Shown: in pieces, positions 11,915-39,118 of the stretch
Layout of the letters: each line of letters starts with the position of its first letter
Numbering within the stretch: position 1 is the first letter of the stretch
IMG/VR virus record: IMGVR_UViG_3300035222_000020
Location: 1-43,782 of that record
Source of the DNA: a virus
Strand: one strand, 5' to 3'
DNA: 43,782 nucleotides
Position numbers and translations under genes: made by a program
Notes under the pieces: generated by a model
What the model saw: the letters and a program-made list of their open reading frames with translations, nothing else
Told to the model about the DNA's origin: nothing
The model's database searches: none

Positions 11915-12148
11915 ATGATAAACAATTTGGTTAAAGTATTGAAGTTTGAAAGTTTACAAAGAGATATAAGTTCAAATGCTATTGTAAATACAAGTTCTAG
12001 TGATTATGAAATTTATATAGCTAGAAAACAACAACGAGAAGTAGATAAAAATAAAATGCAAGATATATGTAGAGAAATAAATACTTTGAAAGCAGAATTA
12101 ATAGAAATTAAAAATATAATAAAGAACGGTAACGGAAATGGCAGTTAG
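11915..12148 (+). CDS. Small coiled-coil protein, unknown
   Basis: This 77-residue protein begins four bases after the DUF4815 gene and overlaps the next gene by 11 bases. The sequence is mostly charged and helical. Residues about 38-70 (QQREVDKNKMQDICREINTLKAE...) have heptad-like spacing consistent with a coiled coil, and the end is NGNGNGS. No clear ribosome site precedes it, so translation is probably coupled to the upstream stop. Small coiled-coil proteins in this place may act as assembly chaperones or fibre connectors, but that is speculation. Confidence 0.6.
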   Translation: MINNLVKVLKFESLQRDISSNAIVNTSSSDYEIYIARKQQREVDKNKMQDICREINTLKAELIEIKNIIKNGNGNGS

Positions 12149-13436
12149 ACAAGTAGCAACGACAGATAGTTTAGACAAGTTAAGGATAGAGTTTAATGCT
12201 CTAGCTTTATCTGACTTTGGTGATATTGCAACATTGGACGCTTCATTATCAGCAACTACGGTTATAGGTGCTGTTAACGAAATTAATGGAATTGCAATTG
12301 CCGCTGCTGGTTTCACATTAACAGATGGCCAAAACTCACAAGCGGTTGCTTCTGGTAATACATTAACCGTAAGTACAACAACAGGAATAACTGCGTTAGT
12401 TTCAGCACCAGATACATTAACACTTGGTATAAACACAGATTTAACAGGTATTAATACTATAGATGTTGCAACTTCTGTTGAGATAGGAGATTTAACCCTT
12501 TCAAGTGGTTCAATAATTGCAACAGGTGGTGCTATAAGTTTCGGTAACGAAAACCTAACTACTACTGGTGGAATTACTGGTGGAGCAATAGTTGGTACAG
12601 GATTAACAATCAATGGTGCTGAATTTTTAATGGAAGGCGCTACTTCGGATGCTTTTGCAACAACGATAAGGGTTACTGACCCAACTGCTGCTAATACAAT
12701 TACTATACCAGATATATCAGGAACCGTAATTACTACTGCTGATACAGGTACGGTTACTCAAACTATGTTAGCAAATTCTGCTGTAAGTACAGACCAAATA
12801 GCTGACGCTTCAATAACGATTGCTAAATTAAAAGATTTTCCAACTTCAACATTAACCGTAGACACTTTAATTGCAAATAATATTACAGGTCTTGCTGCTA
12901 CTGCAAGTCAAGTTGCTTTAACTGCTGATAATAGTACTAACGCAACAAGATTTATTACCTTTAGTGATAATGCTACAGGTAACAATGGATTAAAAACAGA
13001 TACAGATTTTTATTACAATCCTTCTACTAATACATTAACTACAACTTCTACACAAGCAAATTATGCTGACTTGGCAGAAAAATATCTTGTTGATAAAGAA
13101 TACGAAGTAGGAACGGTATTATGTATAGGTGGAACTGCCGAGGTAACTCAATGTAAAGATAATCATTGTTCAAAAGTTGTTGGTGTTGTATCAGAAAAAC
13201 CAGCGTTTATAATGAACGGAAGTTTAGAAGGAATGTCAGTTGCTGTTGCATTAACAGGAAGAGTTTCTTGTAAAGTATGTGGACCAGTTAAAAAAGGTGA
13301 TATGATAGTAAGTTGTGAACAAGCAGGTTGTGGTAGAGCAGAAGCAGAACCAAGACCAGGAACATTAATTGGTAAATCTTTAGTCAATGACGATTCAACA
13401 GGAGAAAGATTAGTTGAAATAGTTGTTGGTAAGTAG
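12138..13436 (+). CDS. Fibre-like virion protein with peptidase-G2-like, Cys-rich C-terminus
   Basis: This 432-residue protein has a repetitive fibre-type N-terminus (VGAVNEINGIAIAAAGFTL, TSVEIGDLTLSSGSI). A C-terminal domain begins near residue 310 with QANYADLAEKYLVDKEYEVGTVL. The series YADLAE.Y, EVGTV, VVGVVSEKPAFIMN, VAVALTGRVSCKV and GPVKKGDMI resembles the intramolecular autoproteolytic chaperone domain (peptidase G2 type) of phage fibres and spikes. If active, it would trimerise the fibre and cut itself off. The domain holds seven Cys residues, including CKDNHC and CKVCG...SCEQAGCG, which is unusual for an otherwise Cys-poor virion protein and suggests metal binding or modification. 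The family call is from pattern memory, and I cannot confirm the catalytic residues. Confidence 0.62.
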   Translation: MAVRQVATTDSLDKLRIEFNALALSDFGDIATLDASLSATTVIGAVNEINGIAIAAAGFTLTDGQNSQAVASGNTLTVSTTTGITALVSAPDTLTLGINTDLTGINTIDVATSVEIGDLTLSSGSIIATGGAISFGNENLTTTGGITGGAIVGTGLTINGAEFLMEGATSDAFATTIRVTDPTAANTITIPDISGTVITTADTGTVTQTMLANSAVSTDQIADASITIAKLKDFPTSTLTVDTLIANNITGLAATASQVALTADNSTNATRFITFSDNATGNNGLKTDTDFYYNPSTNTLTTTSTQANYADLAEKYLVDKEYEVGTVLCIGGTAEVTQCKDNHCSKVVGVVSEKPAFIMNGSLEGMSVAVALTGRVSCKVCGPVKKGDMIVSCEQAGCGRAEAEPRPGTLIGKSLVNDDSTGERLVEIVVGK

Positions 13437-13445
13437 GAGTAGATT

Positions 13446-13934
13446 ATGAGTAGTAAAGACGAACAAACTCTATTATGGATTAAGAGATTAAGAGAAGAAA
13501 TCCAATCACACACTAGATACGAAGCAAGACAACTATTTTACATAGACGAGAATGGACTTGACCGTGAGGCTAAAGAACATATGAGTTATGGTGAATGGTT
13601 GAGAGAGTATAACAGGTTTAAAATTGTTAAGGTGGAAGGTTTAGAAGATGTTGTTTGGTTAAAAGAAGTATTAGATGAAGTAGTAAAGAATATCACAGGT
13701 AAGACAAGACAAGATATTCATTTATTTGTTAATCAAACTGCTGGCATTAGTTTCAAACCTCATAAAGATGATAAAGATGTTTACTTATATGTTGTAAAAG
13801 GAAAAAAGAAAGTAAATATTAATAATGAGGTTAAACCTTTATATGATGATGAAGGAATTATCATTGAACAAGGTGTTGAACACTTTGTTGAAAGTGAAGC
13901 TGATACCTGGGGGTTAAGTATTGGAGTTATATAA
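13446..13934 (+). CDS. Small JmjC/cupin-like Fe(II) oxygenase candidate
   Basis: This 162-residue protein is preceded by a good TAGGAG ribosome site. The core reads LFVNQTAGISFKPHKDDKDVYLYVVKGKKKV, with H106-x-D108 and a downstream EQGVEHFVES containing H146. This is the layout of cupin-fold, 2-oxoglutarate/Fe(II) hydroxylases of the JmjC/YcfD type (PH.D..DV.L.V.GKK). YcfD-type enzymes hydroxylate protein side chains. Here the length is short, and a canonical 2-oxoglutarate-binding Lys or Arg is not obvious, so it could also be a non-catalytic cupin. Its stop overlaps the start of the first radical-SAM gene by one base (TAATG). It is the first gene of the accessory cassette, and I infer a role in peptide modification. 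Confidence 0.62.
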   Translation: MSSKDEQTLLWIKRLREEIQSHTRYEARQLFYIDENGLDREAKEHMSYGEWLREYNRFKIVKVEGLEDVVWLKEVLDEVVKNITGKTRQDIHLFVNQTAGISFKPHKDDKDVYLYVVKGKKKVNINNEVKPLYDDEGIIIEQGVEHFVESEADTWGLSIGVI

Positions 13935-14968
13935 TGAATTGGATGTTTTATTTAAAAACAACCGAAACTTGTAATTTAAATTGTAAACATTGTTTCACTT
14001 CTGGCATTAATGGACCTAAAGTATATTGGGATACTACAAAGGTTATTAAATGGTTAAACGATTTCCGTAAATACAATTCACAAAAAAACGATAGCGCTCA
14101 TTTAGAGTTTCACGGTGGGGAACCATTTTTAGTTCCTGTATCTGAAATGCAATATGTGTATGACGCAACTAAAGATTTGTGGGGCAATCAATCTTATGGT
14201 GTAACCACTAACTTGGTTTTCAAACTAAAACAAGAACATATAGATTTTATAAAGGGACCATTAGGGAATAGATGTGGAACTAGTTGGGATCCTGATATTC
14301 GTTTTGAAAATGAGAAACAATTAAACTTATGGAAACGAAATGTTGCTACTTTAATTGATGAAGGTGTAGACATTAAACTCTTTATATCAGTAACCAAAGA
14401 TACGATAGCAATTGAGCCAATTGAATTATTAAAATGGGTGCAAGATTTGGGTGTTAAAGAAATGGCACTTGAACGATTGACTGGTAATGGTAACGCTAAC
14501 TTACATCCTGAAATATTCCCTTCAAATATAGAACAAGACAAGTGGTTTCTAAAAATGCACGAACAAATGATACAATATAAGGCAAGAAAGTGGTTTGATA
14601 ATGAATTTTTAGAAACTATTTACTCAAAGTTTACTTCTGGTGATACGGAGCAAGGAACTTTTTGTAGAAATTGTGAACAAAAGCTCTTTACACTTAACGC
14701 AACTGGCACAATAGGTGGTTGTCCGAATGCTGCTCCTGAATTCAACTTTGGTACTTTGGATGACCCTTTAGTTGGTCTTATAAATAATCCAAAGAGATTA
14801 GAAGTCATTGCTTGTGAAGTGGCAAGAAACCCAATTTGTTGGGAATGTCCTGTTTTCAAGTATTGTGGTGGCGATTGTCACCAATTAGGATGGCAAGGAG
14901 ACATATGTGGTGCTCCTAAATCTCTTATGAAACATTTGGCGCAAAATAAAAGTGAGGCGATATGGTAA
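13934..14968 (+). CDS. Radical SAM/SPASM peptide-maturase-like enzyme 1
   Basis: This 344-residue protein has CNLNCKHC (C13, C17, C20), the CX3CX2C motif that holds the catalytic 4Fe-4S cluster and binds S-adenosylmethionine. HGGEPFLVP at 60-68 is the GGEP SAM-binding motif. The C-terminus is Cys-rich and SPASM-like, with FCRNCEQKLFTLNATGTIGGCPN followed by NPICWECPVFKYCGGDCHQLGWQGDICG. This resembles anaerobic sulfatase-maturase and RiPP-maturase enzymes, which bind auxiliary Fe-S clusters there. It overlaps the candidate substrate gene by seven bases, so it is the best candidate for the enzyme acting on that substrate. An anaerobic-SME-like oxidation of Cys or Ser is plausible, but the actual reaction is unknown. 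Confidence 0.85.
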   Translation: MNWMFYLKTTETCNLNCKHCFTSGINGPKVYWDTTKVIKWLNDFRKYNSQKNDSAHLEFHGGEPFLVPVSEMQYVYDATKDLWGNQSYGVTTNLVFKLKQEHIDFIKGPLGNRCGTSWDPDIRFENEKQLNLWKRNVATLIDEGVDIKLFISVTKDTIAIEPIELLKWVQDLGVKEMALERLTGNGNANLHPEIFPSNIEQDKWFLKMHEQMIQYKARKWFDNEFLETIYSKFTSGDTEQGTFCRNCEQKLFTLNATGTIGGCPNAAPEFNFGTLDDPLVGLINNPKRLEVIACEVARNPICWECPVFKYCGGDCHQLGWQGDICGAPKSLMKHLAQNKSEAIW

Positions 14969-15735
14969 CATTAACAAGTCCGATAACGGCACAGAACATA
15001 GTAGATAGATTTAAAGAATTGGTAACAGATGTAGCAGATACTAGTATAGTATGGGGTACAGATAACTTACCAGGACACTCAGCGTTTACCACCGCTGATT
15101 TTGGTGGAGTAGTTGATGGTATGTCTTTAGTCCTTATTAATACCACAGGAACATTTACGGTTAACGAAACGGTTACTGGAAGCATATCAGCTACAACAGG
15201 AGTTGTTGTATCTTATTCTAGTAATACATTGAAAGTTAGAAACATAGTTCCAGGTTCTGGACAAACGAATTTTTTACAAAATGATATTTTAACTGGTGCT
15301 TCTTCTGGAGCGATTGGAACGATTTCAACATTGACAGAAGTTTCAGCAGTTAGCGTTGGAGTAACTGGTGGTAATATTGGTAATACAGGAAGTCTTATTG
15401 ACGCTTATGATATTTACTCTACTTTAAAAAATGAAATGAATAATTACACTAATATTAAAAATTGCAATGCTGTAGTAAATTTAACAGGTGGTGCTCAACA
15501 ATATAATCAAACAGAAATTGCACATTTAACAACAGCACAAAGAGTCACCTTGACGCCTAGTCAACCAGGTGCATTATCAACAGGAGCACTTGCTACTTCA
15601 ACAAGTGTAGAAAATTATCTATCTACATTAGCAAGTAGTTATACCAGTGAAAGAGCTAACACATATACAATGACTAAAACGATTTGCCATTCAAGTTGCC
15701 ACTCTAGTTGCCACGGCAGTAGGAGTAGAAGATAA
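14962..15735 (+). CDS. Candidate modified virion protein with CHSS-repeat, Arg-rich tail
   Basis: This 257-residue protein is not an enzyme by any motif I see. Residues about 52-130 hold two copies of the short module found in the baseplate proteins (NETVTGSISATTGVVVSYS and NDILTGASSGAIGTI), so it is probably a virion component. Residues about 140-235 are helical and Thr/Ser-rich. The last 17 residues, 241-257, read ICHSSCHSSCHGSRSRR. This is a perfect four-residue C-H-S/G-S repeat with Cys at 242, 246 and 250, followed by an Arg-rich end. The gene lies between radical-SAM enzyme 1 and two unknown genes. It has a GAGG ribosome site, and its stop overlaps the next start (TAATG). The His-x-Ser spacing recalls the HxsA peptides modified by the HxsB/HxsC radical-SAM pair, but I claim no homology. 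I infer that this tail is the core modified by the cassette. Confidence 0.72.
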   Translation: MVTLTSPITAQNIVDRFKELVTDVADTSIVWGTDNLPGHSAFTTADFGGVVDGMSLVLINTTGTFTVNETVTGSISATTGVVVSYSSNTLKVRNIVPGSGQTNFLQNDILTGASSGAIGTISTLTEVSAVSVGVTGGNIGNTGSLIDAYDIYSTLKNEMNNYTNIKNCNAVVNLTGGAQQYNQTEIAHLTTAQRVTLTPSQPGALSTGALATSTSVENYLSTLASSYTSERANTYTMTKTICHSSCHSSCHGSRSRR

Positions 15736-16427
15736 TGATTGAAACTATAGTACCAATTGAATTAAAGAATTTAAAAAAATACTTTGAAGATAAAACACAA
15801 AGTTATATTATAGACTATCAAAAGAGTGAGTTACAAGGACAACAATTTTTAACTTATTTAAGTAATTTAGATATCCCTTGTGATGTGTCAAACTATGATG
15901 ATGAATTATTATTAGCATATTTTGAAACACAAATGTTAGTCAAAGTACCTATGTTAGAAAGAGTTGCTATACAAGTTCTCTTTGAACATAAAGGTTTAAT
16001 GAAAAATGTTGTTCACGGTGCTTTTATTTCTCAAAATTTAGAAATAATTGAACTATGGGCAAATAAATTAGAAAGTCTTCCTTTATATAATATGTCTATT
16101 ATTGGAGAAGGTGCTTTTAAAGAGTTTGTTGAGAGTTATCCTAAAGACGATAGTAATGATGTAAAAGGTATTAATTTTGTTAGTTTATTAAAACATAAAG
16201 ATTTTTACTTTTACTATAACAAAACTAATGAAAAAAATGTTAAATACTATACTAAATACTTCACAGAATATATGTTCAAAGGTAAAAGTCTATTTAATTT
16301 TTGGGGAGTTAAAGAAAACCCATTGTTCTTATTAACTTGGGCAGTTGCTGAAGGAAAATTTGATACTAAAAAATACAACGAAGCTAAAACAGCCGATATA
16401 GGAAAATTAAATGCTACACCTGTTTAA
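15735..16427 (+). CDS. Unknown cassette protein A
   Basis: This 230-residue protein starts at the overlapping TAATG of the CHSS-tail gene and overlaps the next gene by 17 bases. It appears mostly alpha-helical and acidic, with segments such as LLAYFETQMLVKVPMLERVAIQVLFEHKG (about 58-86) and Tyr/Lys-rich stretches (DFYFYYNKTNEKNVKYYTKYF). There is no signal peptide, no membrane segment and no Cys cluster. I do not recognise the family. Its position directly after the candidate substrate suggests a partner protein, such as a substrate-recognition or scaffold subunit, but no RRE-like (PqqD-like) winged helix is evident to me. Confidence 0.65.
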   Translation: MIETIVPIELKNLKKYFEDKTQSYIIDYQKSELQGQQFLTYLSNLDIPCDVSNYDDELLLAYFETQMLVKVPMLERVAIQVLFEHKGLMKNVVHGAFISQNLEIIELWANKLESLPLYNMSIIGEGAFKEFVESYPKDDSNDVKGINFVSLLKHKDFYFYYNKTNEKNVKYYTKYFTEYMFKGKSLFNFWGVKENPLFLLTWAVAEGKFDTKKYNEAKTADIGKLNATPV

Positions 16428-17526
16428 TAAAGTTTATTTAAATTTTGATGACTCAATAGATTGTCATACAAATAGATATGTTATTTCCGAAGATAAAGGA
16501 AATGCAATGCACGAACAATTAGGGACTGCTTATAGTGGTACACTAATTAACTATGCAACGAATAGAAATGAAATGTCAGGTAAGTATTCTGACTTAACTG
16601 GTTTCTTTGAAGATGTATGTACTAAACAAAAATCATTAAATAGTAAAGTTATTATATATTGCGATACACAAGCATTTTTAGAATACTCTATTATATGGTT
16701 AAAAACTATCTTACCTTTTGCTGATAGTGATAATATTGTAAAATACTTAGACCTATATCTACATAACGAAAGAATCACAGCAAATACTCAACTACAACCT
16801 ACACATACTTTAGATTTAACTAAATTGAATACAGGTTTAGGAGATGTTCTAGGATATGTTAATGTTCTACCTACTTTAGATTTAGATAGAGTTAAAGCGC
16901 TTAATTTAGATTTCTCAATTGAATTATTGCTTGGAGAGTACTTTGCTGGCGCTAATTCACACGAAGCTAATTTACTTACTACTTACCATATGTTTTTACA
17001 AAGATTTTATAAAGAAATATTAACAGATGTTAGAGAGGATGCGGCTCTAAATCTTTTAAATAAATCTCAACAAACTGCATTAGGTTATTCAGCAAATGAT
17101 GTTGTTATAAATGCTGATAACCCTTTTGAAGGAATTACAGAATTGGCTGCCTTTGCTGATACAGATGTTTTTACTGCTAAACCTGTTGCAAATGCTGGAT
17201 ATGTGAATACAATAACAATTGATAATTTGACAAGTGAAAAACAAACTGCATTAAAAACTTTAATTAGTACATTACAAACTTTTCAAAATATTCCAAATCC
17301 AGATTACTCAATGAGTCAATTTGATAAAGCTTGTGGTAATTCTTTATCATCAAGCGACTTTGATACAATAATTAATGAAACGGTGACGAATAGTCCGTCT
17401 TTGGCGTATATCCCAAGATTTGATGTTAGTAATGTTAACTACTCATTTTTACAATATCTTTTTTCTTTAAAGAAAGATAACGATTCAAATACGCTAGGAA
17501 AATTCAGACTATTCGCAAACTCGTAG
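16411..17526 (+). CDS. Unknown cassette protein B
   Basis: This 371-residue protein starts inside the end of protein A and ends eight bases before radical-SAM enzyme 2. It is predicted to be soluble. The N-terminal part has KVYLNFDDSIDCHTNRYVISEDKG and SKVIIYCDTQAFLEYSIIWLKTILPF (about 77-102), which look like a beta-strand and helix pair. The C-terminal part is helical, with QFDKACGNSLSSSDF and a SPSLAYIPRFDVSNVNYSFLQYLFSLKK end. I do not recognise the family. Scattered Cys residues occur but no metal-site spacing. It is tightly coupled to protein A, suggesting that the two work together. Confidence 0.65.
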   Translation: MLHLFNKVYLNFDDSIDCHTNRYVISEDKGNAMHEQLGTAYSGTLINYATNRNEMSGKYSDLTGFFEDVCTKQKSLNSKVIIYCDTQAFLEYSIIWLKTILPFADSDNIVKYLDLYLHNERITANTQLQPTHTLDLTKLNTGLGDVLGYVNVLPTLDLDRVKALNLDFSIELLLGEYFAGANSHEANLLTTYHMFLQRFYKEILTDVREDAALNLLNKSQQTALGYSANDVVINADNPFEGITELAAFADTDVFTAKPVANAGYVNTITIDNLTSEKQTALKTLISTLQTFQNIPNPDYSMSQFDKACGNSLSSSDFDTIINETVTNSPSLAYIPRFDVSNVNYSFLQYLFSLKKDNDSNTLGKFRLFANS

Positions 17527-17534
17527 GAGTTTAA

Positions 17535-18587
17535 ATGCGAGAATTTTTAATAGACCCCAAAAGAGATCCAGAGCAAGAGTACACAATTCATTTATTTGAA
17601 TTCTGTAATTTAAGGTGTGGGTTCTGTTGGCAAAATCACAACGACACGGTTGGAATAGATACCGTAATCAATAAAGTAATTCCTGTAGAAAAATTTATCA
17701 GAAGTGAATTAATGATGAGTGTTGTATTTAATATTATGGGTGGCGAAGTCTTTGCTCCTGCAATCTATAATACAGAATTAAATCACGCATATAAAACTTT
17801 ATCAAAAGGCATACAAATGATATGCAAACGCTATGATAAAAAATTAAAAATTAATTGGGTTAGTAATTTGGTTATGAGTGATGAAGGTAATGAGTTATTA
17901 AGAGATTTATTAAGTTGGTCTGAACAGGAAGGTATTGAAGCAACAATGACTACTAGTTATGACCCGAGAGGAAGATTTAACGAAAAAGATTTAGAACGAT
18001 TTAAACAACAAGTAATCTATTGGGGAAAAGAAATAAAATCTTTTTCAATGTTAATAACTAAACCAATGATAAAGTTTCATTTGGAAAAAGGCGATCCATA
18101 CTTCAAACATTTATATGATGAAGGTTATGAGATTTATTTTGATTATTATACACCAGACCAACACGCTAAAGTCTTTATGCCTAGCGATACGGAGTTATTA
18201 AAGTTCTTTAAGTATATAATAGATAACTATCCACAATGTTCGCCTGTAAGAGAATGGATATTTAAGAAAAGAAATTACGCTAGTTGTAGAACAAGTAAAT
18301 TAATATTACAAGACAATACATTATGTCAATGTGGTAATCTTGTACAGGACCCAAAAGATATAGTAGCATATGCTTCGCCTATAAAGAAAAGAGACAATTC
18401 AATTATTGAAAATAAATTTTTAGAAAAATATAATTGTGCTAGTTGTGAATTTTTGGATAGATGTACTTTAGGATGCTTTATGAACCACGATTATAAATGG
18501 AGGGAAGAATTGGATGAGTGTGTTTACAAACTTACGCACAGATATATTGAAAATGTACGAGTACAAAGAAACTTTATCGCAACCTGA
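17535..18587 (+). CDS. Radical SAM enzyme 2 with C-terminal Cys cluster
   Basis: This 350-residue protein has FCNLRCGFC (C24, C28, C31), the radical-SAM CX3CX2C motif, and IMGGEVF (GGE at 69-71), the SAM-binding motif. The C-terminus carries SCRTSKLILQDNTLCQCGN and later YNCASCEFLDRCTLGCFMNHD...DECVYKLTHRY, a SPASM/Twitch-like Cys set likely to hold one or two auxiliary Fe-S clusters. It has a GTAGGAG ribosome site. Its last 74 bases overlap the start of the next gene. It differs from the other three radical-SAM proteins outside the motifs, which argues for a separate step rather than recent duplication. The substrate is unknown. Confidence 0.83.
   Translation: MREFLIDPKRDPEQEYTIHLFEFCNLRCGFCWQNHNDTVGIDTVINKVIPVEKFIRSELMMSVVFNIMGGEVFAPAIYNTELNHAYKTLSKGIQMICKRYDKKLKINWVSNLVMSDEGNELLRDLLSWSEQEGIEATMTTSYDPRGRFNEKDLERFKQQVIYWGKEIKSFSMLITKPMIKFHLEKGDPYFKHLYDEGYEIYFDYYTPDQHAKVFMPSDTELLKFFKYIIDNYPQCSPVREWIFKKRNYASCRTSKLILQDNTLCQCGNLVQDPKDIVAYASPIKKRDNSIIENKFLEKYNCASCEFLDRCTLGCFMNHDYKWREELDECVYKLTHRYIENVRVQRNFIAT
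18499..18516 (+). promoter_or_regulatory. Ribosome binding site deciding an overlapping start
   Basis: GGAGGGA at 18499-18505 stands 8 to 10 bases before the ATG at 18514, inside the coding end of radical-SAM enzyme 2. The alternative ATG at 18553 has no such site. I therefore keep the start that gives a 74-base overlap. Confidence 0.6.
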
Positions 18588-19146
18588 TATTTCAAAACTA
18601 AAAATTAATAATACAGATATTGAAATTCAGTTAGATAAGTTTCCTATACAAACTCCGTTTATACCTAGAATAGATAGTAGACAAGCACATTTATTTTTAT
18701 GGTTAGGTAAGAAAGAAGAAGACATTGAAACATATAACCTTGCACAAAAGAATATTGGTGAAAAGATGTGGGTACATAATAAAACACCTAATACTTTTAT
18801 AAAAGGTGTAGGTATGTTTCATATCTATGATGATTATGTTATAGTAGGCTCTTTAAAGTACCCTGGTTATATGAGAAGTAAAAGCGCAATAGAAAGAAGA
18901 CGATTGATAAGAACAATGTGGTGTGAAACAATTAATATATTTAAAGATAGAAAGATATTATGTCCTTCTGGTTCTTATTTTGATTACTTACACTTATCTA
19001 TGAACCAAATGAAAGCACAAAAAGAACCTTACCATAGAGAGATAATGCAACAATTTGGTTTTGAAAAAGATGTAGTATATGACCACTTTTGGATTAGAGA
19101 TAAAGAAACAACAACTGGTTTGAATTGGATAAATTATGCAAATTAG
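18514..19146 (+). CDS. Unknown cassette protein C
   Basis: This 210-residue protein overlaps radical-SAM enzyme 2 by 74 bases and the next oxygenase by 11. Its middle has VGMFHIYDDYVIVGSLKYPGYMRSKSAIERRRLIRTMWCETINIFKDRKILCPSGSYFDYLHLSMNQ (about 98-165), a mix of beta strands and a basic helix. The end is YDHFWIRDKETTTGLNWINYAN. I do not recognise the family with confidence, and no HxD or CX3CX2C motif is present. In the cassette it may be a transferase or a binding partner, but the sequence does not show which. Confidence 0.62.
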   Translation: MSVFTNLRTDILKMYEYKETLSQPDISKLKINNTDIEIQLDKFPIQTPFIPRIDSRQAHLFLWLGKKEEDIETYNLAQKNIGEKMWVHNKTPNTFIKGVGMFHIYDDYVIVGSLKYPGYMRSKSAIERRRLIRTMWCETINIFKDRKILCPSGSYFDYLHLSMNQMKAQKEPYHREIMQQFGFEKDVVYDHFWIRDKETTTGLNWINYAN

Positions 19147-19714
19147 GTTTACAGATACAATAGATGTATTAGATAATTTCTTAACTGATAAAGAGTTAAT
19201 AAATCAGTTAAAAGAAGAAAGTAAAATTAATACTACAATTAAAGGACAAGATACATTTAATTTTACACCTTGTCAAAAGAAGTTTTGGGAAATTGCAAAT
19301 GTAACTATAGTAAATTATTGTCTTTCAAACAATATAGACTATAATAATATAGAGTTATCTAATTTTCAAAAAGGTAGATTAAAGAAGTACGACCAATCTA
19401 GTGTGACCAATCATCTATATGAACCACACCACGATAAGGTTGAAGGTGCTTTAATTTCTGCAATCTATTATATAGAAAGTGATTATACACCTGAAAAATG
19501 GGTAGGTGGTGAATTAAGTATATACAAAAATTTAACTTTTGCTGAATACCCTTATAATACCGTAAACATAGAACCTGTAGCTAATAGACTGATAATATTT
19601 CCTGGGTTTCTAGTACATAGAGTTAAACCATACTTTGGAATAAATCCGAGAACATCTTTAGTATTAGGATGGGAAGTAAAAGACCAACCAAAGACTGAAC
19701 CAATAATAGTGTAA
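19136..19714 (+). CDS. 2-oxoglutarate/Fe(II) oxygenase, prolyl-4-hydroxylase-like (1)
   Basis: This 192-residue protein has YEPHHDK (H98-x-D100), then GGELSIYKN, then FPGFLVHRVKPY (H161) and NPRTSLVLGWE (R172). This is the complete His-x-Asp...His iron triad plus the 2-oxoglutarate-binding Arg of the P4H-like double-stranded beta-helix family. The N-terminal IDVLDNFLTDKELINQLKEE is the usual leading helix of phage and bacterial P4H-like proteins. Such enzymes hydroxylate protein side chains or other substrates using O2. It overlaps the previous gene by 11 bases, and its stop shares a base with the next start (TAATG). In this context I infer hydroxylation of a peptide or a modified residue. 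Confidence 0.85.
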   Translation: MQIRFTDTIDVLDNFLTDKELINQLKEESKINTTIKGQDTFNFTPCQKKFWEIANVTIVNYCLSNNIDYNNIELSNFQKGRLKKYDQSSVTNHLYEPHHDKVEGALISAIYYIESDYTPEKWVGGELSIYKNLTFAEYPYNTVNIEPVANRLIIFPGFLVHRVKPYFGINPRTSLVLGWEVKDQPKTEPIIV

Positions 19715-20799
19715 TGGACTTAATAATTAAACCAACTGAATTGTGTAATTTCAAATGTACTTTTTGCTCAAGTACACAATTGACTAATGAGAAAAAGAAT
19801 TGGTTAAAACACGAACAAATATTTGAATTTCTAACAAGATTTCCACAAACTAAAACTATCATAGTAAATGGTGGGGATCCTTTGATGATGGAACCTGAAT
19901 ACTATTGGAAGATTATTAGATGGTTAGATGAAAGAGAATATACTACTTCACTTGCACTAACAACAAACTTATGGCCGTTTTATAAGAAACCTAGTTTATG
20001 GGTTGACTTATTTAATAACGATAGAATAGGAGTAACTACTTCTTTTCAATATGGTGGGGGAAGATTAAAAGGTGATTATTCTGAATTTACAGAAGAAGAC
20101 TTTTGGTTATGTTCAGACGCAATGAAAAAGTATGTTGGTTATAGACCAGATTTTATTTCAGTTATTACTAAAGAGAACGAACACAACGCAATTAAAAATG
20201 TTAAACTTGCAAAGTATATGTCAGAAGATAAAAAACCTGAAGGAACTTTACATACTTTTTGGAGAGAAGAGAAGACAGGTGTTGAGTGTAAGTTAAATTA
20301 TGCAATGATGAGTGGTGAACAAAAAGAACCATTTTTATTATCAGATATATATAATATATACACTAAAATTTATTTAGAAGGTTTAGCACCTTGGGAGTTT
20401 AATACAAAACAAATGATGTTGAGTATTAAAGATTGTTCTACTACTTGTCCTTTAAGTAGAAAGTGTGATGAAGGTATAAGATGTTTACAACCAGATGGAG
20501 ATTATTATAGTTGTGGTGCTTTCGGTGATGATAAAGATAAAGAGATAGATTTTAAAAAAGAAATGAAAGGTGAGTTTTTTACACCATTACAAGATGATGT
20601 TTCATTAATAAGTATGAAAAAATCTTGTTTTAGTTGTCCAATGTTTAATATATGTAATGGTTGTAGAAAGACAATAAAAGATTATCAACGAGCAGGAGTA
20701 ATAGAGAAACATTGTGAGAAAATGAAAAGATTAGGACCTGCAATATTAAAAGCAAATGGAAGTAATTTACAAATGACACCATATATAAGTGAAGCATAA
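19714..20799 (+). CDS. Radical SAM/SPASM enzyme 3
   Basis: This 361-residue protein has LCNFKCTFC (C11, C15, C18) and VNGGDPLMM (GGDP at 53-56), the radical-SAM cluster and SAM motifs. The C-terminus has CSTTCPLSRKCDEGIRCLQPDGDYYSCGAFGDD (from about residue 241) and CFSCPMFNICNGCRKTIKDY...EKHCEKMKRLG, a Cys-rich SPASM-like domain for auxiliary clusters. The stop TAA is directly followed by the ATG of the next oxygenase, so the two are likely co-translated. A radical-SAM plus P4H-like pair on each side suggests successive modification steps. Confidence 0.85.
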   Translation: MDLIIKPTELCNFKCTFCSSTQLTNEKKNWLKHEQIFEFLTRFPQTKTIIVNGGDPLMMEPEYYWKIIRWLDEREYTTSLALTTNLWPFYKKPSLWVDLFNNDRIGVTTSFQYGGGRLKGDYSEFTEEDFWLCSDAMKKYVGYRPDFISVITKENEHNAIKNVKLAKYMSEDKKPEGTLHTFWREEKTGVECKLNYAMMSGEQKEPFLLSDIYNIYTKIYLEGLAPWEFNTKQMMLSIKDCSTTCPLSRKCDEGIRCLQPDGDYYSCGAFGDDKDKEIDFKKEMKGEFFTPLQDDVSLISMKKSCFSCPMFNICNGCRKTIKDYQRAGVIEKHCEKMKRLGPAILKANGSNLQMTPYISEA

Positions 20800-21321
20800 A
20801 TGAGAAGAAGTCATTCCAATATAGAAAATGTTTTAATTAATGGAGTTTGGCCTACTTTGGATCCAGTACCATTTAGATTTTTTGATGGTATTGAAATACC
20901 ATTTAAAGCACAAGATGGATATAAAGTGGCAGTACATACACCAGATGTTGAGAAAGCTCTCAAAATGTGCCATACTTATTTAGGTGATAAATATATTAGT
21001 CAATTGTCTGGTAAGTTTAACTTATATGGACAACCAGAAATTATTAATGGAGTAGACAAAGGTTCGTTAAATTGGCATAATGATTTGAAAGAAGGAGCAA
21101 ATGTAGCAGCTCTTATGTATTTTACTGGAGCTAGTAATCCTGATACTGGAGGACATTTAGAAGTAAGAACTGCTGAGACAAAACAATTATCTGCTTTTTT
21201 ATATCCTGGTAAGTGTGATGTTATATTATTAAATCACAAAAGTACTTGGGAACATAAAATTGGAGAGTTTAAAGAAGCTGGGGTTGAAAGACTTACTGGT
21301 TATTTTGATTATAACATATGA
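20800..21321 (+). CDS. 2-oxoglutarate/Fe(II) oxygenase (2)
   Basis: This 173-residue protein has SLNWHNDLKEGANVAALMYF (H93-x-D95), TGGHLEVRT, KCDVILLNHKSTWEHKIGEF (H152) and GVERLTGYFDY (R164). That is the iron triad and the co-substrate Arg of the 2OG-Fe(II) superfamily. Little similarity to the oxygenase at 19136 is visible beyond the motifs, so it is a second, distinct enzyme. It starts immediately after the stop of radical-SAM enzyme 3, and its TGA overlaps the ATG of a 34-residue gene (ATGA). Confidence 0.8.
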   Translation: MRRSHSNIENVLINGVWPTLDPVPFRFFDGIEIPFKAQDGYKVAVHTPDVEKALKMCHTYLGDKYISQLSGKFNLYGQPEIINGVDKGSLNWHNDLKEGANVAALMYFTGASNPDTGGHLEVRTAETKQLSAFLYPGKCDVILLNHKSTWEHKIGEFKEAGVERLTGYFDYNI

Positions 21322-21422
21322 GCGAATTAGAGTTTTTTAAATTTATACAACAAATGGAAAAAGAAGTATACGATATTATACCATTCTTTGAGGAATTAGA
21401 TTATGACGAAGCAGAAAATTAA
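21318..21422 (+). CDS. 34-residue acidic small protein
   Basis: This short frame starts at an ATGA overlap with the oxygenase stop and ends 20 bases inside radical-SAM enzyme 4. The product is acidic and helical (begins MSELEFFKFIQQMEKEVYDI, ends EELDYDEAEN). Perfect stop-start coupling, in an operon where every other junction is coupled, argues that it is translated. It could be a small binding partner or leader-like peptide, or it may merely deliver ribosomes to the next start. It has no Cys and no repeat, so a RiPP core is unlikely. Confidence 0.55.
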   Translation: MSELEFFKFIQQMEKEVYDIIPFFEELDYDEAEN

Positions 21423-22374
21423 TTTATCAGTTAATCCATCTTATCATTGTAATTTTAGATGTTCTTGGTGTTATCTTACACCTGAACAATTAGGCGATAC
21501 TAAAACTATAAGTGATGAAAGATTAAATGAATTACTAGCAGAAGTTTCTGCTCATAGAGAAATTAATCATATTGATTTATATGGTGGTGAGATTGGTATA
21601 TTAAAGAAAGAACAATTAAAGAACATCACAGAAGTTATTAGACTTTATTATAAAGATAGAATTAATATCAATACAAATTTATCTGTATTAAGAGAAGAAT
21701 TTTTTAATCCCGATTATTATTTAAGTGTTAGTTATGATTTAGAGACTAGACAAGACTATGAAAAAGTTAAAGATAATATGGCGAAACTTCCAGTTGATTT
21801 TTCTATATTATGCTTAGCAACAAGAGAAGTGTTGAGCCGCTCTAGCGAACATTGGTGGCAAACATTTAATAATATTAACAAGTTGAGTATAGACCAACAT
21901 AAAGAATCTCATCTTAAAAGTGTAGAATTAAAACCTTATAGTTCTAATCAAGCAAATGACCAAAAGATAACACATACAGAATTTGAAAACAAAGTTTTAG
22001 ATTTATTAATGCTGGAAAAGGGATCAAAAGATGGTGATTATAATTTTGTAAATAGAGATAAAATAATAGACTCGTTAAGTGGAAAATATAACGCTTATAG
22101 TGATGACCACTTATATATTACACCAAATGGTAAATTCGCTGTATTGGAATTTGATAAAGACGATAGAGAATACTTTTTAGAATTAAATAGTTTTAAAGAA
22201 TACGAAGATTGGTGTATAAAAGAAAAAGAAAAGACCATATCAGATATTTGTAAAAAATGTGAATACCTAGGCGGTTGTTTAACTGAACATTACAAGTATG
22301 TTGATAATTTAAAAGATGGTTGTAATGGATACAAGTATGTTTTGGATACTTATCAGTTTAAATATGGCAAATAG
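21403..22374 (+). CDS. Radical SAM enzyme 4
   Basis: This 323-residue protein has HCNFRCSWCYL (C16, C20, C23) and LYGGEIGIL (GGE at 61-63). The core continues with ININTNLSVL and YLSVSYDLE, typical barrel strands. The C-terminal Cys set is reduced: ICKKCEYLGGCLTEHYKYVDNLKDGCNGYKYV (about 285-317), closer to a Twitch-type or single auxiliary-cluster domain than to a full SPASM domain. A GAGG ribosome site lies inside the small upstream gene. It is the fourth and shortest radical-SAM protein of the cassette. The substrate is unknown. Confidence 0.83.
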   Translation: MTKQKINLSVNPSYHCNFRCSWCYLTPEQLGDTKTISDERLNELLAEVSAHREINHIDLYGGEIGILKKEQLKNITEVIRLYYKDRININTNLSVLREEFFNPDYYLSVSYDLETRQDYEKVKDNMAKLPVDFSILCLATREVLSRSSEHWWQTFNNINKLSIDQHKESHLKSVELKPYSSNQANDQKITHTEFENKVLDLLMLEKGSKDGDYNFVNRDKIIDSLSGKYNAYSDDHLYITPNGKFAVLEFDKDDREYFLELNSFKEYEDWCIKEKEKTISDICKKCEYLGGCLTEHYKYVDNLKDGCNGYKYVLDTYQFKYGK

Positions 22375-23158
22375 AGCATTTTGTATTGGTAATGGAAGAA
22401 GTAGAAAAGGTTTTGATTTAAAAACTTTAAAACCTCGTGGTGTAATATTAGGTTGTAATAATCTTTATAAAGATTTTGTACCAGATATATTGGTTGCAAA
22501 AGACGCTCCAATTATGCACCACATTTATAATTCTGGATATTGTTATACAGCTAAATGTTTTTTTAAAAATTGGATAACGATACCTGAAGCTAAATTTGAA
22601 ACTACACTACACAAGTTATTTCCTGGGTATAGACATTTAAGAGCAATAAGAAAATCAGGTCAGTTAATAGAAAATGGTAGAGCAGGTTCAAGTGAGTTTG
22701 TATTACACGGATATAATGATGAAGAAACTAAAAAGAATATGGTATGTGTAAGTTGGTCTACAAAAGATTATGTTATTAATATAGCAGACATAGTAAGAGA
22801 CGCCGAACAAATGGATTGGTCATCAGGTCCTTTAAGTGGTTATATTGCTTGTAAAGATATTAGAGAATTAAAAGAAGTCTATCTAGTTGGACACGATTTA
22901 TATAGTGTGGGTAAAGGATTTAATAATATATATGCAGGACAGAAATTTTATAAAAAAGATACGCACCCTAGTAATTATTATGTACAAGGTTGGATACTAG
23001 AATGGAAACAATTGTTTAAGTGGTATCATTGGATTAAATTTTATAAAGTTAACAAAAAAAGTTATTTAAATATAAACATTCCTGAATGGAGCGATTGTAA
23101 AAATTTGGAGTATATAAGTTATGAAAGAATGGAAGCTCAAACAAGAAATTTACCATAG
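22364..23158 (+). CDS. Protein with nucleotide-binding-like IGNGRSRKG N-terminus
   Basis: I choose the ATG at 22364 (MANRAFCIGNGRSRKGFDL), giving 264 residues. An upstream ATG at 22316 would add 16 residues encoded by the end of radical-SAM enzyme 4, and it has no better ribosome site. The N-terminus, with FCIGNGRSRKGFDLKTLKPRGVILGCNNLYKDFVPDILVAKDAPIMHHI, recalls the DUF115/MptE-like and glycosyltransferase-associated fold (IGNGPS...G.N..Y....D..V..D). KDIRELKEVYLVGHDLYSVG is a second strand-helix unit, near residue 180. Related phage proteins exist, but no activity is established that I can cite. It may act on surface sugars or provide substrate for the cassette. Function is unknown. Confidence 0.65.
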   Translation: MANRAFCIGNGRSRKGFDLKTLKPRGVILGCNNLYKDFVPDILVAKDAPIMHHIYNSGYCYTAKCFFKNWITIPEAKFETTLHKLFPGYRHLRAIRKSGQLIENGRAGSSEFVLHGYNDEETKKNMVCVSWSTKDYVINIADIVRDAEQMDWSSGPLSGYIACKDIRELKEVYLVGHDLYSVGKGFNNIYAGQKFYKKDTHPSNYYVQGWILEWKQLFKWYHWIKFYKVNKKSYLNINIPEWSDCKNLEYISYERMEAQTRNLP

Positions 23159-23558
23159 ACTAAATCCTACTCACTCGGATATGTTAATGGATAAAGAGAT
23201 ATCCTTAATATGGGGTGACCAAGATATAATAGATTACGCTATTAAACATTGGAACGAAAGAGTAGATAAGTTTATATATCCTGCAAAGAGTTATTGTGTA
23301 GCGATATGTTATGCGAAGTGGATAGAGAGAGATTATGGAGATAACTTTTGGGACTTATTAAATGACCAAGCGTTATTGTATAGTAATGACCCATACTTTG
23401 AAATATATAAAGACAAGAAACATATTTACAATCCAATAATATCTGCTTTCCCAGAGGATGAAACTTTAGGAATGATACCTGATATTAGGGATTGGTATGA
23501 AAAAGAAATAAGATACGATACTGGAATTAGTATAAATAGTAAATATAAGGAGAAATAA
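23121..23558 (+). CDS. Unknown cassette protein D
   Basis: This 145-residue protein overlaps the previous gene by 38 bases and has a GGAG site 10 bases before its ATG. It is rich in Asp, Tyr and Trp, with DMLMDKEISLIWGDQDIIDYAIKHWNERVDKFIYPAKSYC and a DPYFEIYKDKKHIYNPIIS stretch. No known motif is visible and no membrane segment. The late promoter for the next transcription unit lies inside its last codons, which marks it as the last gene of the cassette. Confidence 0.6.
   Translation: MKEWKLKQEIYHRLNPTHSDMLMDKEISLIWGDQDIIDYAIKHWNERVDKFIYPAKSYCVAICYAKWIERDYGDNFWDLLNDQALLYSNDPYFEIYKDKKHIYNPIISAFPEDETLGMIPDIRDWYEKEIRYDTGISINSKYKEK
23531..23538 (+). promoter_or_regulatory. T4-type late promoter TATAAATA (intragenic)
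   Basis: A perfect octamer sits inside the end of the preceding gene, 30 bases before the ATG at 23561. This is the same spacing as at the other late promoters. It restarts late transcription after the cassette. Confidence 0.75.
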
Positions 23559-23560
23559 TT

Positions 23561-23821
23561 ATGGCTATTAAGATTAATGGAAAAGACTATGATGAAACGA
23601 AGTTTGACGACAAGACTAAAAATTATGTCATTGCTCGTCAGGAACTTGTTCAAAATCGTGCTAGGTTGGAGATTGAAGCGGAAAAAATTGAGGTATTGAT
23701 AAGATTTTATAATACTAAAATTTGTGAATTCTTAGGAATTGACCCCAATGCTCCTAAAGATAATACCGTAGAAACAAAAACACCAATATTAGAACCAAAA
23801 ACAGAAAATAAAGTAAAGTAG
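23561..23821 (+). CDS. Small DUF6447-like protein
   Basis: This 86-residue protein begins MAIKINGKDYDETKFDDKTKNYV, followed by a helix of about 35 residues (ARQELVQNRARLEIEAEKIEVLIRFYNTKI) and a Pro/Thr/Lys-rich tail. The short 'INGK.Y' hairpin plus helix resembles small proteins of T4-like marine phages (DUF6447 type). The function is not known. It has an AAGGAG ribosome site and its own late promoter. Confidence 0.62.
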   Translation: MAIKINGKDYDETKFDDKTKNYVIARQELVQNRARLEIEAEKIEVLIRFYNTKICEFLGIDPNAPKDNTVETKTPILEPKTENKVK

Positions 23822-27546: not shown

Positions 27547-30500
27547 ATGGCAGATTTTATTTTAGGTAGACTTAAATTTCACTTTAAAGGTGATTGGGTT
27601 ACCGCAACAGCTTATATTAAAGATGATGTAGTTAGATATGGTGGTAATACTTTTGTCGCAATAGTAAACCATACTTCTTCTGCACTTTTTGAAACAGAAC
27701 TTGTAGCAACAAAATGGAAAAAATTCGCAGCTGGTACTGAATGGAAAGGTGTTTGGACAGCTACTACTTTCTATAAAGTAGATGATGTAGTACAATGGGG
27801 AGGTTCTACCTTCGCCTGCAATACTGCTCACACTTCACAAGCAGATTTATATGACGACACAGCAAAATGGACATCTTTTGTTCCAGGGTTTGCGTGGAAA
27901 GGTACCTACACAAATGGTACTGCTTACAAAGTTAATGATTTAGCAAAATATGGTGCTAATGTTTATATCTGTACCGTAGAACATACTGCCGCTTCTACAA
28001 TAGATACAGCAAAATTCGCCGTATTCGTTTCTGGATTAGAATTTGAAGATTCTTGGAATTCAGGAACAGCTTATCAAGCTGGTGACATTGTAACTTACGG
28101 TGGTTATAATTATGTTGCTGAACAACAAAATTCAAATGAAATACCATACAACAACGCTTCCAATTGGGTAGTATTAACTACTGGTTGGAAAATGCAAGGC
28201 ACATACGCTGGTGCAACTGCATATAAAACTGGTGATGTTGTTAGATACGGTGGTCATACATATGTTGCAACAACAGACGCACAAGGAATAGTTCCAACAA
28301 CAACTGCAAATTGGGATTTATTAAATGAAGGATTTAATTGGAGGGATGATTGGACAGACGCAACTGATTATGCTCCAGGAGATGGTGTTAACTATGGTTC
28401 ATCATCTTATAGATGTAAATTAGCTCACACTTCTTCTGCTGTTGCAGGAGACGCTAAACGACCAGATTACGATAGTGGTGGAGTTTATTGGGATTTACTT
28501 GCTGAAGGTGATACAAACGCAACTCTAACTACAAGAGGTGATATTTTAACAAGAGACGCAACTCAACGAGCTAGATTAGCTGTTGGTACTACTGGTTCAT
28601 TATTAAAATCAGATGGTACAGATGTCGCTTGGGCAGTACCTGGAGTTACAACAGCTGTTTATTTTGTTGGCAAACACGGTGCTGATAACGATCCTGCTTC
28701 TGATTCAGGAAGAGGAACATCTTTAGAAAAACCTTGGTTAACAATTCAATACGCATTAACTTGGATGGCAGTAACAGGTAATATTGCTGCTGCTACAAAC
28801 AAAATACTTTATGTTAAAACAGGAGAATATGAGGAGGCATTGCCACTTATAGTTCCTGCTAATACAGCTTTAATTGGTGACGCATTAAGAAGTACAAAAA
28901 TTGCTCCTGCTTCAGGAAATTCAACTGCTTCAGGATTAACAAGTACACCTAACGCAAGAGCAGATATGCTTAGAGTTAGAAATGGAACTACGGTTAGAAA
29001 CTTTACATTTTCAGGAATGCTTGGAACAAATGGAAGTGATGACTCTTTTGGAGTAGCACGACCAAATACTGCTGACGGTGCAAGTCGTTCAGGAGTATGT
29101 ATTGCTTTAGATCCAGGTTCTGGAGTATCAGATACTTCCGTTCACATTACAGATAAAGAACCTTCTATAGAAAATTGTACACACATTGGTACTGGTTCTG
29201 TTGGAATTAAAGTTGATGGTTCATTACACAACGCTGGATTCATATCAATTTTTGCAAATGATTTTACACAAGTTAGTTCTGACGGTGTTGGAGTATGGAC
29301 TTTATCAAACGCTGTAGCTGAATTAGATTCAGTATTCACTTATTACTGCCACCACGGCTATCTTGCTGATAGTGGTTCTTTAATTAGAGGTTTGAACTCA
29401 AACAACTCTTATGGAGAATATGGTTCAACAGCTGCTGGTATTGACGCTGCTGAAACAGCTTATACTGGTGCTGTAGATTTACAAAACAACGAGGCAATAG
29501 TTGGAAGAACATTAATTGCTGATGGTAAAATTGGAAGATTAGAAATGGAATATGCTGGGGAAGGTTATTCTTCTTCAACAATAACTATTGGTGGAAGTGG
29601 AACTTCTGCTGCTGTTACTGGAGATTTAAGTGATGGTGCTATAGAACATATTACGGTAAATACTACTGGCGCAACACAATTCTCATCTTCTTCTGCTTTA
29701 GATTTTAGATATGCACAAGGAGGAACTACAAGTACAATTATCCTTAATGCTAGTGATACACAAGCAGATGACTTTTATAATGGAATGAGAATTAACATTT
29801 ATCAAGGTACTGGTTATGGTAGTACTGGAACGATAAGTGATTATGTTTCTTCTACAAAAACTGCTACGGTACAAAAAAATAATAGTAGTGCAGGATTTGA
29901 TGTCTGGGTAAATTCTGGATTATCAGCTGCTACTACTTTTGATTCAAGTACTGGATATGAAATAGAACCAAAAGTTGCTATCTCTGGTGGAGGTTCTCCA
30001 AGTAGAGAAGCTCTAGTTAGAGCAGTTATAGTAGATGGATTACTTTCAAAAGTTTTAATTTTAGATGGTGGTGCTGGATATTCTTCTGCACCTACGGTTA
30101 CATTAACAGACCCTAGTGCTGGAACGCTTGGTACTGCAACAGCAACAATCGGAGATGGAGTTATATCTCGTACAACGGTTGGTACTGCTGGTACAGGATA
30201 CAAACAAGAAGACACAACTGCTACGGTTGCTGGAGATGGTTATGCTGAAATATCAAGTGAAGGAACTGCCTTTGTTAGAGTAGATGGATTATCTAAAGAA
30301 CCTGCAGGTGGAGATGTAATAGAGTTTGCTGGAATATCTGGACAAGCTTATTATGTTGTTGGAGTTACAGGATATTCTGCTGGTGCTGGAACGGTTAGAG
30401 TTAGTCCTAAATTTACAACTTCTAATAAACCAACTAATAATGAAACAGCAACTTTAAGAAGTAATTACTCAAATATCAGATTAACTGGACACGACTTCCA

Positions 30501-34532: not shown

Positions 34533-34538
34533 TAAATA
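34531..34538 (+). promoter_or_regulatory. Possible weak late promoter (AATAAATA)
   Basis: This octamer differs from TATAAATA at its first base and lies 32 bases before the ATG at 34563, the spacing of the perfect promoters. It is a likely but weaker late promoter. Read-through from 31280 is the alternative. Confidence 0.4.
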
Positions 34539-34562
34539 TAATTAAGATAGGGAAAAATTAAA

Positions 34563-38648: not shown

Positions 38649-38657
38649 CATTAATAG

Positions 38658-38665
38658 TATAAATA
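38658..38665 (+). promoter_or_regulatory. T4-type late promoter TATAAATA
   Basis: A perfect octamer lies 41 bases before the ATG at 38699, with CGGAG as ribosome site. The leader is about 10 bases longer than at the other late promoters. Confidence 0.75.
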
Positions 38666-38698
38666 GAAGTATTAACAAACAATAACGGAGAAAATAAA

Positions 38699-39088
38699 AT
38701 GGCAAAAGTAATATATTCAATGACTGCTGGAATAGCGCAGGATGCTGATTATACTGCACCTGTAGGTGATACGCCAATTAGTTTAGGAGAAGTAGAAGGT
38801 AAAACTTATTTTTCTATAGATGATGGTAATACTACTATCACAACTGATGGCACAAACGCTTCAAAATATGGTGTGGCTGTAGTATCAGACGCTGATGAAA
38901 AAGTAAAAGTCAAAAATGCAAGTTCTCATGTAACACAAGGACTAAGCACTTTAGATAATGAGTTCCTTACAGGAAAAAGTATGATAGACCTTTTAGCAGA
39001 TGTCGCTGACTCAACAGGAGCAACAACAACTGCAATAGCAAATCATAAAACAGCAAAAGCTACATTTTTAACAGATTTAGGATTTTAA
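38699..39088 (+). CDS. Small protein between fibre genes
   Basis: This 129-residue protein has AKVIYSMTAGIAQDADYTAPVGDTPISLGEVEGKTYFSIDDGNTTITTDGTNASKYGVAVVSDADEKVKV and a helical end (LTGKSMIDLLADVADSTGATTTAIANHKTAKATFLTDLGF). It could be a fibre-associated protein or a chaperone for the neighbouring fibres. I do not recognise the family. It has its own late promoter. Confidence 0.62.
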   Translation: MAKVIYSMTAGIAQDADYTAPVGDTPISLGEVEGKTYFSIDDGNTTITTDGTNASKYGVAVVSDADEKVKVKNASSHVTQGLSTLDNEFLTGKSMIDLLADVADSTGATTTAIANHKTAKATFLTDLGF

Positions 39089-39118
39089 TTAATAAATTTA
39101 GAAAATAGGTAATAGTAA

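Follow-up and report, generated by a model that had tools for sequence, protein, structure and literature searches.

The window analysed here is a viral stretch of 43,782 nucleotides (IMG/VR record IMGVR_UViG_3300035222_000020, positions 1 to 43,782), and its subject is a cassette at 13446-23558 made up of 13 tightly packed genes, all on the + strand. The gene order is cupin/JmjC-like, rSAM1, substrate, P4, P5, rSAM2, P210, 2OGa, rSAM3, 2OGb, rSAM4, P280 and P145, where rSAM designates radical S-adenosylmethionine (SAM) proteins, 2OG designates 2-oxoglutarate (2OG)-Fe(II) oxygenases and the substrate is the proposed target of the enzymes. An initial annotation, made from the letters alone, had named these elements, and all were found where it placed them, with gene junctions that overlap or touch as it described. 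It had counted 14 genes in the interval; the fourteenth is a small open reading frame (ORF) after the cassette (23561-23821), which is not a conserved member. The cassette genes are open and, compared with four relatives, intact under purifying selection, with ratios of nonsynonymous to synonymous substitution rates (dN/dS) of 0.09-0.45. G+C content is 0.29-0.30 at 16-24 kb of the window versus 0.33-0.38 in the flanks. The window is a host-recognition region of the pelagimyophage type, and the cassette lies between the VrlC gene (product 56% identical to that of Pelagibacter phage Mosig) and the neck gene (69%), an interval designated the 'host recognition cluster' of pelagimyophages in excerpts of PMC7029224.

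Enzymes and partner proteins

The four radical-SAM proteins proposed in the initial annotation each carry the CX3CX2C motif: rSAM1 (13934..14968, 344 aa, CNLNCKHC), rSAM2 (17535..18587, 350 aa, CNLRCGFC), rSAM3 (19714..20799, 361 aa, CNFKCTFC) and rSAM4 (21403..22374, 323 aa, CNFRCSWC). Against the Pfam family PF04055 (cut-off 29.5 bits), rSAM3 (30.2 bits, E 6.2e-7) and rSAM4 (30.5 bits, E 5.1e-7) scored over the cut-off and rSAM1 (23.5 bits) and rSAM2 (18.8 bits) below it. The NCBIfam SPASM model TIGR04085 (cut-off 27 bits) was exceeded by rSAM1 (29.0 bits); rSAM3 (21.8 bits) and rSAM2 (14.8 bits) fell below, and rSAM4 was not listed. rSAM1, which usually lies directly upstream of the substrate gene, has the full SPASM cysteine set (CX10GX4C ... 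CX2CX5CX3C ... C) and matches phrog_1802 at 6.5e-65. Its profile matched the solved structures of CteB (5wgg, 9e-9) and of the anaerobic sulfatase maturase anSME (4k37, 3.5e-7). rSAM2 (phrog_1802, 6.7e-38) has a CX2CX5CX3C C-terminus, and its five C-terminal cysteines are invariant in 14 relatives. The profile of the SPASM-like rSAM3, the most conserved enzyme, matches anSME over almost its full length. The initial annotation had asked for a check of whether profile matches lead to sugar or small-molecule pathways; they led instead to SPASM enzymes that modify peptides or proteins (anaerobic sulfatase maturase, CteB, DynA, PapB and HxsB).

An antiviral or anti-defence chemistry of the viperin kind was also considered, as PADLOC reported pVip matches of 24-36 bits. 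These matches are limited to ~60-90 residues of the radical-SAM core; the prokaryotic viperin equivalog model, with a cut-off of 180 bits, gave 33. With matches this weak and confined to the core, a viperin or defence role is excluded for practical purposes.

The two 2OG-Fe(II) oxygenases named in the initial annotation both keep HxD...H...R. The prolyl-4-hydroxylase-like 2OGa (19136..19714, 192 aa), with the iron triad HHD, a distal H and R, met the Pfam PF13640 cut-off (2.2e-8) and matched the prolyl 4-hydroxylase structure 6t8m at 8e-4; 2OGb (20800..21321, 173 aa), with HND and a distal H, remained under the PF13640 cut-off (1e-3). The cupin/JmjC-like protein (13446..13934, 162 aa) is a putative Fe(II)/2OG hydroxylase whose H106, D108, K121 and H146 are invariant in 23 relatives, which agrees with its earlier description as JmjC/cupin-like. 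It scored below the Pfam cut-offs for Cupin_2 (24.7 against 27.2 bits, E 2e-5) and JmjC_2 (17.6 against 22 bits, E 0.003), and its profile matched the histidyl-hydroxylase MINA (1.6e-5) and ordinary cupins too.

Among the remaining proteins, P4 (15735..16427, 230 aa, phrog_20767 6e-58) is a conserved partner that may present the substrate. Its model has a predicted local distance difference test (pLDDT) score of 90, and a fold comparison with the PDB gave only an alpha/beta match of ~50 residues (Z up to 3.4) and no useful family, with families outside those listed not excluded. P145 (23121..23558, 145 aa, phrog_20737 1.3e-37) is a core member with a YPAKSYxVAICYA motif and 23 invariant columns in 14 sequences. 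The frequent partner P5 (16411..17526, 371 aa) had no match in Pfam or NCBIfam, and the accessory P210 (18514..19146, 210 aa) had none in the Pfam, NCBIfam and PHROG scans. P280 (22316..23158, 280 aa, phrog_30607 4.7e-40) is a lineage-specific accessory.

The Cys-His-Ser tail and the coupled enzymes

The substrate gene (14962..15735) encodes 257 residues, consisting of a folded body and a 16-residue C-terminal core that reads CHSSCHSSCHGSRSRR; this is the virion-like protein ending in a Cys/His/Ser repeat of the initial annotation. The core with its RxRR terminus (15685..15732) would be the modified tail and its recognition end. In an AlphaFold2 model the body is folded (pLDDT 90.4 for the model) and the tail unstructured (pLDDT <62). 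The tail consensus is CHxSCHxSCHx(S/A)RxRR-stop, in which the three Cys-His pairs and the three Arg are invariant. In the tails of 69 genes directly after rSAM1, a set retrieved through rSAM1 and not through the motif, C1, H2, C5, H6, C9, H10, R13, R15 and R16 were each present in 69/69; positions 4, 8 and 12 were Ser, Asn or Ala, and position 14 was mostly Gly or Ser. When rows were chosen by the motif, the bodies showed ~25% mean column identity and all 11 invariant columns lay within the last 16 residues. The body is also evolving faster (dN/dS 0.20-0.42) than rSAM1 or P145 (0.09-0.14). Judged by comparison of sequences, conservation of the substrate is confined to the tail, and for this reason tblastn with the window substrate found no match in isolate phages. 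An NCBIfam search with the window substrate gave no match at E 1, and Pfam gave no Peptidase_S74 match in it.

An exact pattern scan of viral contigs for the consensus returned at least 119 stretches. The 119 listed hold 149 motif proteins, two in tandem in 30 of them; some cassette gene was present in 116 and a radical-SAM family gene in 114, and the three stretches without cassette genes are only 3.0-8.6 kb long. A looser four-unit CH-repeat pattern served as a negative control, and 65 of its 74 matches were simple repeats with no cassette enzyme nearby. The reverse test started from rSAM1. In a first set of 52 relatives, five were cut off near rSAM1 and 46 of the 47 others had a clear three-unit motif downstream; at the remaining locus (L186) the sequence CHSSCHSSCHSSCHWA is followed by a Hint domain. 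A search with a 13-sequence rSAM1 alignment, in which the best 80 of 280 relatives were kept so that very distant relatives are less well covered, found the motif in 76/80, and the four without it end within ~280 bases of rSAM1. Thus all 76 of the 76 relatives with enough downstream sequence have the motif in their stretch, 69 of them in the next gene. The occurrence of the enzymes without a CHSS-type substrate, which the initial annotation held would count against it, was not seen for rSAM1.

The composition of the gene set was counted in 31 stretches of more than 20 kb, chosen by rSAM3. rSAM1, rSAM2, rSAM3, rSAM4, P4 and P145 were present in 31/31. Next in frequency came the cupin/JmjC-like gene (30 stretches), the motif gene (29), P5 (28), a fibre-like neighbour (27), the 2OGb family (23), P210 (13), 2OGa (11) and P280 (7). 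The number of 2OG oxygenases per stretch ranged from none to four. Both long stretches without the motif have a tandem layout, and one of them (L329) is on a contig where two motif genes lie immediately beyond it (L073). Obligate coupling of the motif and the enzyme set is well supported by these comparisons of gene content.

In the tandem layout, seen in L030, L049, L064, L108 and others, genes for a pair of small motif proteins (124-140 aa) precede several diverged rSAM5-like genes. Where the core set was seen, it lay close by, sometimes on the opposite strand. No match was found when the tandem-type substrate was sought in isolates.

Structural or fibre context in phages and predatory bacteria

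In the AlphaFold2 model, residues ~52-129 of the window substrate form a beta insert of the phage-fibre type. Its best solved match was a baseplate protein of the Klebsiella phage KP1 variant Lilla1 (9f4a, Z 7.8, 71 residues, 2.2 A); translation factors shared a lower score (Z ~6). The insert also resembles viral models that include cyanophage fibre and baseplate-wedge proteins.

A search of isolates with rSAM1 returned seven records, all jumbo phages: Sinorhizobium phage Phosso, Agrobacterium phage Atu_ph07 (two records), Burkholderia phage SURPRISE13, FLC6, FLC8 and Pseudomonas phage pPa_SNUABM_DT01. rSAM3 identity in jumbo phages was 52-60%. In the four isolate phages taken in full, the gene after rSAM1 ends in CHxSCHxSCHx(S/A)RxRR despite different bodies; the Phosso substrate is the product of gene 289 (XYS97446.1). 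Excerpts of the Atu_ph07 study report that most virion proteins detected by electrospray ionisation tandem mass spectrometry fall into three clusters, one of which is coding sequences 170-215 (PMC6102473). The motif protein of Atu_ph07 is FDI40_gp170, the first gene of that cluster, and the numbering agrees (gp215 is the major head protein and gp198 the portal). The SURPRISE13 cassette also has two genes annotated as dihydrofolate reductase between rSAM2 and rSAM3 (L004:18406-19583).

Some viral substrates have a different architecture. In L363, a Peptidase_S74 domain (chaperone of endosialidase) is fused behind the core (E 1.5e-11, over the cut-off, with SDERLK), and in L410 Hint domains follow the core (Hom_end_hint, 2e-15). 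L115 and L400 encode multi-core precursors in which core blocks are repeated ahead of one RGRR end. These variants bear on the possibility that the system is a true ribosomally synthesised and post-translationally modified peptide (RiPP), in which the body serves only as a leader and cleavage sets the CH tail free as a small bioactive peptide that might, for instance, mediate superinfection exclusion or kill competitors. The large leader with a C-terminal core is laid out like a precursor, and both the multi-core forms and the autoprocessing domains after the core would suit such a product. Against release, Pfam scans found no leader peptidase or exporter among the window cassette ORFs, the S74 and Hint domains are located beyond the core, which would stay joined to the body, and the body has a virion-type insert, as well as gp170 lying in a virion cluster in the Atu_ph07 excerpts. 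We therefore regard a released peptide as unlikely. S74 cleavage would be expected to leave the core on the body's C-terminus. At L410 (12417 onward, minus strand of the contig), the Hint/intein-like domain begins with a Cys two residues past the last CH unit, and its autoproteolysis could release a finished tail.

A genome-wide motif scan gave 15 matches, of which 12 were real and three (L127, L130 and L137) were rejected as chance, being without the motif end and without cassette neighbours. One real match is on a 382-kb contig of a Halobacteriovoraceae metagenome-assembled genome, among thiolase, acyl-CoA dehydrogenase, globin and Dps genes, and another cassette is on a 4,153,408-base contig near rpsB and tsf. 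The rSAM1 profile was positive in 13/129 Halobacteriovoraceae genomes. The predator cassettes that were analysed in full have rSAM1, rSAM3, rSAM4, P4 and P145, with the cupin and rSAM2 genes in most. Their substrates end in CHxSRGRR, often with two CH units; that of G051 ends instead in SNHGSRGRR. Most of these cassettes adjoin a gene whose product starts with a type-IV-pilin N-methylation sequence and ends in an S74 chaperone (SDxxxK). Most predator rSAM3 sequences group together (support 94/89), the exception being one on a long branch, in a tree that does not show the direction of transfer. On gene content, about eight co-travelling genes are common to many large phages and some predatory-bacterium chromosomes. 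A search for phage-sheath families in the predator genomes returned nothing. At two predator cassettes an additional protein was observed: L434:4571-6307 (G001) has radical-SAM (PF04055) and weak B12-binding matches, and L452:10568-12280 (G005) has a similar start. An extra methylation step by this protein is possible.

The initial annotation took the substrate to be a tail or virion component, and this is supported by the Atu_ph07 cluster (in the excerpts cited), the fibre-type beta insert, the S74 fusion and the S74 neighbour in predators. A structural or fibre setting of the substrate is well supported by comparison.

The fibre-like neighbour in the window (12138..13436, 432 aa, not an enzyme) lies upstream of the cassette, which its relatives often adjoin. 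It matches the tail fibre protein family phrog_19602 (4.6e-6) and, under the cut-off, Peptidase_G2 (0.004). Its C-terminal domain (13100-13390) is unusually Cys-rich (CIGG, CKDNHC, CKVC, CEQAGC), which differs from its relatives in L002 and L003. A proposed homology of this neighbour to a 184-209-aa protein beside predator cassettes was dropped at an hhalign probability of 3%.

Fibre genes next to the cassette, together with the fibre-like bodies and the regular CH dyads, are also what would be expected if the tail were an unmodified metal-binding tip, with Cys/His ligands on a three-fold axis and the enzymes acting elsewhere on the protein or on the neighbouring fibre. Fe is bound by HxH motifs in known phage fibre and spike tips. 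This is a serious rival reading of the tail, which we nevertheless consider improbable: in the two tail/body types and in the predator versions, the same enzymes are retained only together with the tail, and this is the sole invariant feature that the enzymes could share.

Elsewhere in the window, a heme oxygenase gene (42192-42857, PF01126, 1.8e-23) is directly followed by a ferredoxin-dependent bilin reductase gene (42817-43425, PF05996, 2.1e-12), a bilin-making pair inside a pelagimyophage-like structural region. Three consecutive large structural proteins (31311-41317) have C-terminal RCC1-like propeller repeats, and five matches to carbohydrate-binding module 5/12 occur in the protein preceding them (27547-31284); these four are likely receptor-binding fibres. 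The presence of the bilin genes in the island (42192-43425), and of glycosyltransferases in pelagimyophage islands (excerpts of PMC7029224), could be taken to mean that the cassette enzymes serve auxiliary metabolism, producing a small molecule or modifying a surface sugar, with the motif gene a passenger of a variable host-recognition island. The two-way coupling is complete across marine T4-like phages, jumbo phages and predatory bacteria, and the best full-length matches of the enzymes are protein or peptide maturases, so that such a role is very improbable.

Proposed function and relation to known systems

The cassette is probably machinery dedicated to the post-translational modification of one virion protein, fibre- or baseplate-associated, and acts on its C-terminal tail. 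As in RiPP systems, a precursor with a conserved core is encoded beside modifying enzymes, and the proposal of the initial annotation, a RiPP-like cassette that modifies a tail component, gains support from the substrate-enzyme coupling, the peptide-maturase matches and the structural or fibre context. In this reading the body of the substrate is folded and evolves fast, and its flexible C-terminal tail is built from C-H-x-S units and closes with R-x-R-R-COOH. The four radical-SAM enzymes and the JmjC/cupin-type hydroxylase would act sequentially on the Cys, His and Ser/Asn of the tail, with P4 and P145 as obligatory partners that may guide the substrate or present it. The enzymes probably recognise the RxRR end, as a recognition or follower element, and the additional 2OG oxygenases may contribute lineage-specific oxidations. 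The finished tail would remain on the particle, displayed at or near the host-recognition structure. We infer in this scheme the occurrence of covalent modification, its place on the tail, the fibre-tip position and the order of steps.

SPASM enzymes commonly make thioether or carbon-carbon links, or oxidise Cys or Ser. Cyclophane-forming enzymes use a three-residue unit, which H-x-S/N resembles, and known JmjC enzymes hydroxylate His or Arg. By analogy with these classes, our guess at the chemistry would be His-x-Ser/Asn cyclophane or Cys thioether links plus hydroxylation.

Several observations weigh against the proposed function. rSAM1 and rSAM2 scored under the Pfam Radical_SAM cut-off, and the PDB comparison matched only the inserted beta domain of the substrate. 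The presence of gp170 in the Atu_ph07 virion is suggested by the cluster limit, its individual entry not being among the excerpts of that study. The L358 and L370 variants are without the RxRR end and several predator substrates have two CH units only; therefore neither a recognition role of RxRR nor the number of units is fixed.

More tentatively, and with slightly less than even confidence, phages and predators may share a machine of four radical-SAM enzymes and a JmjC enzyme that builds a remodelled Cys-His-Ser needle on the C-termini of adhesion fibres for host or prey recognition, which would be a new class of protein modification. Should this hold, extensive enzymatic alteration of the tail of a virion protein would be widespread among jumbo phages and some of the most abundant phages of the ocean, and the machine would have been transferred to or from bacteria that prey on other bacteria. 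The system would offer enzymes able to modify a 16-residue tag that functions on widely differing bodies, fibre chemistry would be linked to host range in a testable way, and phage families now listed as unknown (phrog_1802 members, 20767, 20737 and 35144) would gain a function. Cultured carriers of the cassette exist, and the central claim is therefore open to mass spectrometry.

The enzyme classes are already known, and the biology has a reasonable chance of being a new category. In the open-access literature (subscription papers and preprints being outside the scope), no description was found of a CHxS-RxRR substrate or its enzyme coupling, of four radical-SAM enzymes devoted to a single protein, or of such a system shared by phages and predators. 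Jumbo-phage papers list cassette enzymes as accessory genes (PMC11898562, PMC8066314, PMC5468394). According to excerpts of PMC7029224, two pelagimyophages differ by radical-SAM cassettes in the host recognition cluster; these are of the same gene class and in the same place, from VrlC to the neck gene, but those excerpts record them as an inter-phage difference only, without a substrate, motif or function. The mosaic adhesive trimer (MAT) fibres of Bdellovibrio, which are S74-terminated, serve prey recognition (PMC10769870), and the main text of that paper makes no mention of radical-SAM enzymes. MAT proteins are characterised by a signal peptide and, after it, a conserved beta domain of ~130 aa; the comparison with them covered the S74 part. 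Predator cassettes likewise adjoin an S74 protein with an SDxxxK motif, but these neighbours have the pilin-type N-methylation start and are only 345-430 aa long.

The closest enzymatic likeness is to SPASM RiPP maturation (SCIFF/CteB, the ranthipeptide enzyme PapB and the dynobactin enzyme DynA) and to anSME, where SPASM enzymes act with a ribosomal substrate encoded nearby; the profiles of rSAM1 and rSAM3 match anSME and that of rSAM1 matches CteB. The cassette enzymes differ in scoring far under every equivalog cut-off, in the four obligate radical-SAM enzymes per tail and in having a structural phage or fibre protein as substrate. In the Hxs system, a repeat protein, HxsA, occurs with the radical-SAM enzymes HxsB and HxsC (Haft and Basu, as cited in excerpts of PMC9062424). 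The cassette was rejected as an Hxs system on its scores for HxsB (36 against 370 bits) and HxsC (32 against 268 bits), with no HxsA match. The two are alike in encoding a His-x-Ser repeat protein with radical-SAM enzymes, whereas in the cassette described here the unit is C-H-x-S, it lies at the extreme C-terminus with RxRR, and it is accompanied by four radical-SAM enzymes and a JmjC-like protein in virion operons.

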